From contig CAIQHB010000056.1 of NCBI GenBank assembly GCA_903871465.1, forward strand, positions 78,246-142,245: 64,000 bases of DNA, written 5' to 3'. This DNA is from an uncultured Methanosarcinales archaeon. GTDB lineage: Archaea; Halobacteriota; Methanosarcinia; Methanotrichales; Methanotrichaceae. The notes beneath the pieces were generated by a model, which did no database searches, had not been told where the DNA came from, and was given only the letters and a program-made list of their open reading frames with translations. The position numbers and the translations under genes were made by a program. Shown piece by piece: positions 12,548 to 17,785 of the stretch; position 1 is the stretch's first letter, and every line of letters begins with the position of its first letter.

Positions 12548-13013
12548 CACTATTCATCTGTGGTTGAAAACATCGCGAGCTCGCCGGCTCTCAGCGGTTA
12601 CGGACGTTCACCACAGAGGAGATGCTGAATTTTCTGGCCAAAAAATCGATCCGATCACGACAAACGATTCTTACGCGGCCTGGAGAGAAGGCCAGTATGA
12701 CGATTTGGTTTTAAGCATAAGCCTGGCTGACTGACGGGAAAAAGTGCCCCGAAACGACCACGCTTAACCTCCACAAGACTCCGATTCATCATCGGCCTCC
12801 CACGGTGGACGGCGACGGCTTTAGATGCGGTTATTATGGGTGAAAACTTCATTATCCTTTGACGGCGATTAAGTACGGGTAAAAATAGCCACGCTTCACA
12901 AAGCGTATCTGTAGATATCATATCATCCACCCTTGTATCTTCCAATCATGCAGGAATTTTGCAAAGTTTTTAGTTAGATCCTTCGATGCTGAACAAAGTA
13001 AGGAGGGAATCGA

Positions 13014-13793
13014 ACGAAAAGACTACTGATTTTAGCGGTATTGGCGGTTACGCTAATTGGCATGGCAAGCGCAGCCAACTACATGTACGAAAAGGCGTCC
13101 GTCAAGGGTGTCGGCTACAAGAACGTAGAAATGATCGTTTCCACTCAGTATGGTTTTATGGGCCAGAAGCTGGTAGAAAAGGAATCTGGTTCCGGTAATG
13201 TCATCACCGAGAAGAGCGAGCTTGAGGCCGAGAGGCAACTGGTGAGAGATGGAATGCCAATCGGCGGAATAGGTGAATTCGGTAATGAATTGCTGTCGAC
13301 TTGTGCCTTCCCAACCGGTCGAACCTGCATCATGGATTACATCAACTTCACTAAAGAAGCTGAGTTCGAGTACATGCCCGTGTCTTACCAGACCGGTACC
13401 TATGACCAGAAGTGGGTAGAAAAATTGTGCGTACAGAACTACAGGATCGGCGCTGTGCTGACCGAGATGTACACCCATGCCGAGCATCTCCAAAAGACAA
13501 CCGAAGTTAAAACCAGGGGCTATGGCATCACTAGAGATTTCGGTCCAGGTGGATGCCCAGCTTGCTGTACCGGTGTTCTAGAGGCAAACCTGAACAGCAA
13601 CGTCATCGGCGTCGCCCACATCGGATGGATCTCCCGTGATCCCAAGGCAGACGATCAGCTCAAAGGTCGCCATGCTGAGTATGGCAGATCTGTCGAGGAC
13701 CTCACTGGTGTCTTCTCCATCGAGAAATTCATTCAGCTCTGGGGTAACTCCACATGCGGTGCCATCAGCGTGGATTGGCTGCCTTGCGTGTAA
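13014..13793 (+). CDS. Sheath/surface-like secreted protein, paralog A, predicted ACG start
   Basis: From ACG at 13014: (M)KRLLILAVLAVTLIGMASAANYMYEKASVKGVGYKNVEMIVSTQ; GGAGG 7 nt upstream; in-frame TAA at 12999 and no ATG/GTG/TTG before 13041. Confidence 0.75.
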   Translation, partial: TKRLLILAVLAVTLIGMASAANYMYEKASVKGVGYKNVEMIVSTQYGFMGQKLVEKESGSGNVITEKSELEAERQLVRDGMPIGGIGEFGNELLSTCAFPTGRTCIMDYINFTKEAEFEYMPVSYQTGTYDQKWVEKLCVQNYRIGAVLTEMYTHAEHLQKTTEVKTRGYGITRDFGPGGCPACCTGVLEANLNSNVIGVAHIGWISRDPKADDQLKGRHAEYGRSVEDLTGVFSIEKFIQLWGNSTCGAISVDWLPCV

Positions 13794-14289: not shown

Positions 14290-15507
14290 ATGTCTCCTTG
14301 GGCACTCTGGCTCTGCATAGTTCTCTATATTGGATCAGGAGCAGCAGAAGATGTGCCTTTCATCTTTGACACTAATGTCTCTGGTGTATCTAGCTATACC
14401 GCTGCTCAATTTGAGCAGGCTCATGCCTCATCAACAGACCTCATAGGTGTGCCTATCGTAATACAACCTGCGGATAACGAGACCTTAGATTTTCCCGTTA
14501 CTGGCGGAGGCAACACACCCGAAGGTACTACAGAAAAGAAAGTAGACGACCTCAAGATCGAATTCGATGCACGTGTGGAGCCTGAAAACCCGCGAGTAAA
14601 TGATGAAGCAGTCGTGCTTGCGCTCAAATACCCTGGCGATCTCACCATCGATCAGATAGCCTCAATTTACAGTTACCTAAAAAATGGTGATGGTTCCAAG
14701 AAAGGTTGGGGCTATGTGCGGGATCCAAGAGGCATTGATTACATAAGATACGCCAATGCCTCATTAAAACTGGGTGACCGGGCCAATTGCGTGGGTGGAG
14801 GTGACTGTGACGATTTTGCCATCCTCATGGCTGCGCTGGTGGAATCCATAGGTGGGACCACCAGAATTATTCTGGCTCGCAATAATACTACAGGCGGCCA
14901 TGCTTATACTGAAGTCTATCTTGGGAATCTTGATGCGAGCAGCCGGATCGAAGATATCATCAACAGGCTAAAAGAAAAGTTTGATACGGATAAGATCTAT
15001 ACTCATATCGATACAGATACCAAAGATGTATGGCTCAATCTCGACTGGGGTCCAGACGAAAAAGGGAACACACATCCGGGCGGTCCTTTTTACCAGGGAG
15101 ACCGGCACATAGTTCTCTGCATTAGGGATCACTATAAGAAGGCCGCATTAAGCCCTAGTGAGGCATCTTTGAAAGACGACAAGTTTGAGGATATATCAGA
15201 ACCGACTGCAGATAAATTCTCAACAGATACGGGGATAACAAACTCAAAAAACGATGGACAGAATGATCCAGCTATCGCTTTTTGCATCAAACGTGGTAAT
15301 ATATACGAAAACGGCATATGCACATTACCGGGTGGGTCATCATGTGACGTATTGGATTTCTATAGAGGAGACTGCATTTTAGCAGGTAAACGAGGTGTAG
15401 GCTCAACTGTATCAAGAACTGGAAGCACAGCCGTTGGGAGTGGTGGAAGCTACAGTTCGAGTAGCTCAGGCTCTTCATCGATGAGCATCTCTACGAACTA
15501 TGACTAG
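14290..15507 (+). CDS. Secreted transglutaminase-like protein with DUF333-like Cys segment and Ser-rich tail
   Basis: GDCDDFAILMAALVESIGGTTRIILARNNTTGGHAYTEVYLG; VWLNLDW; DPAIAFCIKRGNIYENGICTLPGGSSCDVLDFYRGDC; signal-like N-terminus. Confidence 0.75.
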   Translation: MSPWALWLCIVLYIGSGAAEDVPFIFDTNVSGVSSYTAAQFEQAHASSTDLIGVPIVIQPADNETLDFPVTGGGNTPEGTTEKKVDDLKIEFDARVEPENPRVNDEAVVLALKYPGDLTIDQIASIYSYLKNGDGSKKGWGYVRDPRGIDYIRYANASLKLGDRANCVGGGDCDDFAILMAALVESIGGTTRIILARNNTTGGHAYTEVYLGNLDASSRIEDIINRLKEKFDTDKIYTHIDTDTKDVWLNLDWGPDEKGNTHPGGPFYQGDRHIVLCIRDHYKKAALSPSEASLKDDKFEDISEPTADKFSTDTGITNSKNDGQNDPAIAFCIKRGNIYENGICTLPGGSSCDVLDFYRGDCILAGKRGVGSTVSRTGSTAVGSGGSYSSSSSGSSSMSISTNYD

Positions 15508-15789: not shown

Positions 15790-16107
15790 ATGAAGAAATT
15801 AGCAATCGTGTCAATAGTTCTGTTGCTTGCAGGAATCGGATTGGCTTTTGGAGAAGCAGGACACTGTGCAGGAAACTGCAACTGCCCTAGCGGTACAGCG
15901 TGTTCTCAATCGGTATGCGGGGCAAGCTGTGGAGGTTCGTGCACCCAAGATGCCTCTGTGACATCCTCATGTGGAACTCATTGCCCCGTAGGGAGATGCG
16001 GAGGCGCGAGTGGCTGCCAGGCTTGCTGCGGAGCTAACTGTGCGGCCTGTTGTGGCACAGCGGCTAATCAAGAAGCCCTGAGTACATATAACTCGCAAAA
16101 ATCTTAA
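15790..16107 (+). CDS. Small secreted Cys-rich protein (16 Cys)
   Basis: MKKLAIVSIVLLLAGIGLAFG signal peptide; body has 16 Cys, including CQACCGANCAACCG. Confidence 0.8.
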   Translation: MKKLAIVSIVLLLAGIGLAFGEAGHCAGNCNCPSGTACSQSVCGASCGGSCTQDASVTSSCGTHCPVGRCGGASGCQACCGANCAACCGTAANQEALSTYNSQKS

Positions 16108-16401: not shown

Positions 16402-17367
16402 TTACACGCAGGGCAGCCAGTCAACGCTGATGGCACCGCATGTGGAGTTGCCCCAAAGCTGTATGAACTTCTCGATGGAGAAGACACCAGTTAGGTCTTC
16501 AACGCTACGGCCGTACTCAGCATGGCGGCCCTTAAGCTGTGGATCAGCACTGGGATCGCGGGAGATCCATCCGATATGGGCAACGCCGATGACGTTGCTG
16601 TTCAGGTTAGCCTCCAGAACACCGGTGCAGCAGGCTGGGCAGCCAATAGTACCATCTCCGTTTTGTCCACCAACCACGGATGATTGAATACCATAGCCTC
16701 TGGTCTTGACCTCGGTGGTCTTCTGCAGGTGCTCAGCGTGGGTGTACATCTCAGTCAGCACAGCGCCGATTCTGTAGTTCTGCACGCACAGCTTCTCAAC
16801 CCACTTCTGGTCGTAGGTGCCGGTCTGGTAAGAGACAGGCATGTACTCGAACTCAGCTTCCTTGGTGAAGTTGATGTAGTCCATGGGGCATGCAGTGCCC
16901 GTTGGCCAATTGCAAGTCGGATCATAGCGTGCTGCGATTACGTCCAAATTTCCTTCCTGATTCTCTAAAATATTGGCCCACTTCTTATCGTTAACCCCAA
17001 GGGCCTCTTGATAGATTGAGTCACCCTTATAAAAGGTACCGATCAGGTTGCCATGGTCTCTGATCTTTACCGGATCTTCTGAAGTAACCACATAATGCAC
17101 TGGATCCAAAACAGCACCAAGTGTGGTGTAGTCCCTGTTGAGCTGCCTTTCGGCCTCTAGCTCAGTCTTCTCGGTGATGACGTTGCCGGACCCGGACTCC
17201 TTCTCTACCAGCTTCTGGCCGCTAAAGCCAGTCTGGGTGGAAATGATCATCTCTACATTTTTGTAGCCGACACCCTTGACGGATGCCTTTTCGTACATAT
17301 AGTTGGCAGCTCCCGCCGTGCCAATTAGCGCAATAGCTAGTACCGCCAAAATTAGTAGTCTCTTCGT
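16402..17367 (-). CDS. Sheath/surface-like secreted protein, paralog B, predicted ACG start
   Basis: From ACG at 17367: (M)KRLLILAVLAIALIGTAGAANYMYEKASVKGVGYKNVEM; GGAGG 9 nt upstream; in-frame TAG two codons before the ACG. Confidence 0.75.
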   Translation of the reverse strand, partial: TKRLLILAVLAIALIGTAGAANYMYEKASVKGVGYKNVEMIISTQTGFSGQKLVEKESGSGNVITEKTELEAERQLNRDYTTLGAVLDPVHYVVTSEDPVKIRDHGNLIGTFYKGDSIYQEALGVNDKKWANILENQEGNLDVIAARYDPTCNWPTGTACPMDYINFTKEAEFEYMPVSYQTGTYDQKWVEKLCVQNYRIGAVLTEMYTHAEHLQKTTEVKTRGYGIQSSVVGGQNGDGTIGCPACCTGVLEANLNSNVIGVAHIGWISRDPSADPQLKGRHAEYGRSVEDLTGVFSIEKFIQLWGNSTCGAISVDWLPCV

Positions 17368-17785
17368 TTTCTATTCCCTCCTAGCTTAGGATAGCAATCG
17401 GGTTATATACATTCATATTTGAATGTAATGGATAATAATCTCGAATTGAAGCATGTACTGTACTTGGCTAGATTACTGGTAATTGCCAGTTTATACAATC
17501 CTGTACACGCCTTATAGATGCGGATTCCAAATATGCGATTACGTGCGGGGGCTCAATCTCCCCATATGTTGCGCTCCATGTTCCGCATCGTCGAAATCGA
17601 TAGCACTAAGATCAATTGATCGATATCAGCAACCACACAGTTTTGCTCGATCTTTATCTTATAGTGGCTGGAATAGGGACTTCGACAGAATAGGATTTAG
17701 GGCCACTTGGATGGGTTGCATAGGGCGCTATGTATAACTTGCAGGTTTTGGCCTGAGCCCTCAAAGAAGTTCTGTGGCCGTTTTC

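Follow-up and report, generated by a model that had tools for sequence, protein, structure and literature searches.

The window, that is, the whole 64,000-nucleotide stretch of DNA that was analysed, carries two paralogous genes, A and B, which share an unusual beginning. Gene B, encoding a putative sheath (SH) paralog, occupies positions 16402-17367 of the minus strand and comprises 321 codons, counted from an ACG (17365-17367) and followed by TAA. The initial annotation had placed this ACG 9 nt downstream of the Shine-Dalgarno (SD) motif GGAGG (17377-17381) and two codons downstream of an in-frame TAG (17371-17373), with a TTG (17347-17349) as the earliest in-frame ATG, GTG or TTG, and all of these coordinates were confirmed. 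Translated from the ACG, the frame reads (M)KRLLILAVLAIALIGTAGA-ANYMYEK and opens with a predicted signal peptide, (M)KRLLILAVLAIALIGTAGAA (17305-17367). Gene A lies on the plus strand (13014-13793, ACG to TAA); its proposed start (13014-13016) stands 7 nt downstream of GGAGG (13002-13006), a TAA is located upstream at 12999-13001, and the earliest standard codon is a TTG at 13041. A gene caller restricted to ATG, GTG and TTG indeed misplaces both starts, as had been anticipated, setting A at TTG 13041 and B, by a likely miscall, at TTG 17349, and starts placed at these TTG codons deprive the signal peptide of its basic n-region.

Neither gene is disrupted, and both evolve under purifying selection. 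Over 259 aligned codons, 225 residues are identical and 34 different, and 85 of the 225 identical residues are encoded by different synonymous codons (dN 0.105, dS 1.09, dN/dS ~0.1). The observation that A and B differ at many synonymous sites and yet both keep the ACG and the KRLLILAVLA frame was thereby borne out. Furthermore, the codons following the ACG vary mostly synonymously or conservatively (AAG/AAA, AGA/CGA, CTA/CTG/TTA), and ACG is also found in two more paralogs of the own genome and in copies from 16 genomes. As judged from sequence, both genes almost certainly start at the ACG. The interval between them harbours two genes with ATG starts (14290-15507 and 15790-16107). Their products, a protein with a transglutaminase core and a serine-rich tail and a small, secreted, cysteine-rich one, might conceivably have to do with cross-linking of the sheath.

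We infer that the family of A and B probably represents the archaeal SH proteins, whose core is amyloid-like and consists of two six-stranded beta sheets (PMC11576556, PMC10593813). This identity rests on architecture and lineage, as fold searches returned no match: BFVD and PDB gave none, with libraries that hold no SH reference structure, a PDB profile search likewise found no match, and Pfam reported nothing significant for A or B. The AlphaFold2 model of the mature part of gene A, built from a diverse alignment, reached a pLDDT of 84.7 and displays six long strand tracks, the second and third of them separated by a variable insert. This would agree with the SH core as published, two sheets of six strands each plus a cap; gene B, modelled with close homologs, reached a pLDDT of 42. 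By its leader anatomy an N-terminal signal peptide is present, and the variable cap and the many copies of SH proteins find their counterparts in a variable middle part and in the 20 places of the own genome (3.13 Mb, 81 contigs) matched by gene B. The family resembles the SH proteins of Methanothrix and Methanospirillum in its signal peptide, its predicted all-beta core and its variable cap insert, as well as in its many copies per genome and its occurrence throughout the Methanotrichales (PMC11576556, PMC10593813). As a separate observation, sheath-like paralogs at L019 (G000:C37 ~142.1-143.3 kb), L228:2459-3511 and L260:1060-2079 encode a hydrophobic leader, a ubiquitin domain close to the eukaryotic form (Pfam PF00240, E 2e-30 in L260) and an in-frame sheath-like domain, in this order. 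The main text of the ISME sheath paper mentions neither ubiquitin nor start codons.

Relatives were taken from a named collection and belong nearly all to Methanothrix/Methanosaeta or Methanotrichaceae, the N-terminal query matching in 26 of 26 genus genomes and 49 of 50 family genomes. Tabulating the start position across these homologs, as the initial annotation had proposed, strengthens the case, since this position is near-cognate or standard and not random. Among 139 labelled Methanotrichaceae N-termini, a set that includes M. harundinacea-type leaders (GGTGGGAGAACAACG), 67 carry ATG, 28 TTG, 3 GTG and 41 (~29 %) a near-cognate codon, namely ACG (28), ATC (5), ATT (3), ATA (3) or CTG (2), distributed over 20 genomes and 7 genera. 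In 37 of 142 N-termini there is no ATG, GTG or TTG 4-12 nt after GGAGG. Within a three-base spacing window (7-9 nt after GGAGG), which admits exactly one in-frame codon, these 37 hold ACG 22 times, ATC 5, ATT 3, ATA 3, CTG 2 and AGG 2 times, and both AGG cases have an ACG at 6 nt. As the five near-cognates account for 12 % of the coding codons of the own genome, their presence in 35 of 37 corresponds to P ~3e-30, the true weight of which is smaller because the homologs are related and not independent. AAG, the other A-G neighbour of ATG, never occurs at the start position of the family N-termini. Random codons in the homologs would have spoken against a start at this place; the opposite was found, with codons able to form two of the three base pairs with the initiator anticodon, which is what initiation by tRNA-Met with one mismatch predicts. 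The ACG of gene B aligns with ATG, ACG, ATC, ATT, ATA, CTG and TTG starts, so that of the conservation initially claimed for ACG, the near-cognate class at a conserved place stands, whereas the triplet itself is not fixed (ATG, TTG, GTG, ATC, ATT, ATA and CTG occur too).

In some homologs an in-frame stop codon lies directly upstream of the near-cognate, as in TGA-ACG (L054, L144), TAA-ACG (L172) and TGA-ATA (L166), which leaves no start possible further upstream. The predicted leaders of all 41 near-cognate copies run from the near-cognate codon to the cleavage region, forming basic signal peptides of 20-24 residues with a net positive n-region in 40 of 41; leader length and n-region charge of gene B are thus kept throughout. 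Assembly error is unlikely, as near-cognate copies are present in two apparently complete genomes, an ACG copy (L185) in what we take to be Methanothrix harundinacea 6Ac and a CTG copy (L059) in what is presumably M. soehngenii GP6. In one genome (G031), seven sheath-like paralogs start with ATC or ATT and an eighth with ACG (L163, L167, L169, L173, L182, L183, L188 and L171), a pattern implying that the preferred near-cognate codon varies by lineage.

Taken at the level of sequence, these genes probably encode secreted secondary sheath subunits in which a near-cognate start combined with a strong SD would set translation at a low level. Gene B, like A, would specify a Methanothrix secreted surface protein, most likely a secondary amyloid-like sheath subunit; the strong SD would position the ribosome at the ACG, which the ordinary initiator Met-tRNA would read with one mismatch, presumably placing methionine at residue 1, and the weak codon behind the strong SD would yield a low but defined output. 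Paralogs in high demand would keep ATG, whereas many secondary ones would use ACG, ATC, ATT, ATA, CTG or TTG. According to a 2024 study, SH transcription in M. thermoacetophila is dominated by a small number of genes, the remainder being low (PMC11576556); in our set, ATG has been retained by the tandem copies, but often not by the dispersed ones. In Sulfolobus, the initiation factor aIF1 is reported to discriminate against non-canonical start codons and to reduce initiation at them (work cited in PMC6237735). The aIF1 gene is intact in the own genome and starts with ATG, and a missing fidelity factor is therefore not the reason for the near-cognate starts. The SD-anti-SD match had no greater length in genes with a near-cognate start than in those with ATG, and SD strength as a compensation for the weak start, which we considered, thus finds no support in match length. 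That the weak start has been selected for expression control is plausible, though unproven; the best argument for such selection comes from a gene outside the family.

This gene is rfcS, encoding the small subunit of the clamp loader replication factor C, in which the codon preceding KEEIWIEKYRP is ATC in 24, ATT in 6, ATA in 5 and ATG in 2 of 37 Methanotrichaceae genomes (loci L297-L318 and L368-L382; own genome G000:C39 ~194.5-194.7 kb), giving an apparent ATC, ATT or ATA start in 35 of 37. In 16 of these genomes (15 near-cognate, 1 ATG), among them G046, which we take to be M. thermoacetophila PT, no standard codon lies between the upstream stop and the start, and in L370 the ATT immediately follows TAG. 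An ACG in the own-genome rfcS had been regarded as a further ACG start and was rejected, since the ortholog frame begins later, at an ATH. Near-cognate starts are hence not limited to the surface family, and conservation of ATH over ATG in rfcS is what most favours selection for a weak start. The same codons are, however, what would be expected if initiation in the Methanotrichaceae simply accepts near-cognates behind a good SD, in which case they would have no regulatory role and the sheath family would stand out by being many-copied. We regard such lineage-wide tolerance as a real, if lesser, possibility. A dihydroorotase-like gene on the minus strand (G000:C37 ~130.9 kb, within L208-L215) may add to it: its frame, (ATA)NFDLAVINGLVYT, has an ATA that two species conserve 7 nt downstream of GGAGG, and a TTG two codons upstream that is only 1 nt after GGAGG, and the ATA is possibly another near-cognate start. 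The genomic background speaks against general tolerance. In 464 kb of the own genome (the window and a further 400 kb; 293 gene-like ORFs), near-cognates at SD distance were not enriched beyond A and B. Moreover, when 53 genes were paired with their orthologs in a second species, the other candidates were rfcS and the dihydroorotase-like gene, so that near-cognates amount to ~2 of 51 other pairs versus 41 of 139 SH termini, a comparison in which the criteria differ and relatedness is uncorrected.

Near-cognate starts could also be mildly harmful mutations that are tolerated in little-expressed, redundant paralogs, which we consider unlikely. Their distribution would agree with such relaxed selection, as tandem 'GGAGGTGGGAAAGAAATG' copies retain ATG and near-cognates are concentrated in dispersed copies, which often do not, and most SH genes are transcribed at a low level (PMC11576556). 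On a tree of mature N-terminal DNA, parsimony needs no fewer than 27 switches between standard and near-cognate starts, a count perhaps inflated by gene conversion. Strong support was obtained for 13 of 123 inner branches only, and near-cognate and ATG copies are intermixed, which on so weak a tree is also compatible with relaxed selection; L187 (ACG) and L189 (ATG), which form a pair with strong support, reside in a single genome. However, the coding regions have remained intact at a dN/dS of ~0.1, the SD is strong in 41 of 41 near-cognate copies, and one and the same ACG leader persists in four genomes of the M. harundinacea group (L153, L176, L185, L187). In addition, the presumably essential rfcS keeps its ATH even though ATG is one step away.

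Far less probable is a start at the TTG inside the frame (17349 in B, 13041 in A) with a shorter leader: this codon is the earliest standard start and was chosen by the standard ORF list, but the TTG of B is TTA in A and that of A is CTA in B, the SD would lie over 20 nt away, and basic residues kept by synonymous change would go untranslated. C-to-U editing of the mRNA from ACG to AUG, as occurs in plastids, would account for the ACG copies but would leave the CTG, ATA, ATC and ATT starts found there unexplained, and as we know of no precedent for archaeal mRNA editing, we give it next to no credence.

If a whole protein family and a replication gene do initiate at near-cognate codons, the consequences would extend beyond this locus. 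In an abundant family of methanogens, gene callers would be placing starts wrongly throughout, the paralogs would provide a natural start-codon series for measuring archaeal start selection, and there would be a hint of how sheath paralogs, up to dozens of them, stay at different levels.

To date, natural near-cognate starts in prokaryotes have been documented for few genes only (infC, sigR), and full-text searches of the open-access literature found no earlier report of ACG starts in archaea. In bacteria, infC, encoding IF3, starts with AUU or AUC, through which IF3 autoregulates (PMC5472188). The genes described here are reminiscent of infC in their conserved near-cognate start behind an SD, which would be read by the initiator tRNA. 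In contrast, infC is a single-copy bacterial gene for an initiation factor, whereas we deal with an archaeal multigene surface family that mainly uses ACG, and the gene of aIF1 itself starts here with ATG. One might go further and hypothesize a Methanotrichaceae gene class, made up of secondary sheath subunits and rfcS, in which near-cognate starts are selected and jointly tuned by the stringency of initiation, through aIF1 or a changed machinery, as an archaeal counterpart of the IF3/infC control; this broader proposal we deem doubtful. A second precedent is sigR of Streptomyces, whose GTC start is experimentally proven and repressed by IF3 (PMC5472188). Here, too, a rare start is conserved, in that case within the genus, and was misannotated; that of sigR keeps one protein below its partner. 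Unlike our 41 termini with several codons, known from their sequence, sigR is a single gene with GTC. Finally, replacement of AUG starts has been measured across 36 groups, yielding 3.2e-5 for AUG to CUG and 1.6e-5 for AUG to AUU, with ACG unlisted (Belinky 2017, PMC5622118), while near-cognates here make up 29 % of a family. Set against these systems, both a family in which about that share of starts is near-cognate and an AUH start in an archaeal replication gene would, by their sequences, seem to be new variants. They suggest that weak start codons are much more widely used in Methanotrichaceae than was known, perhaps to hold output low.
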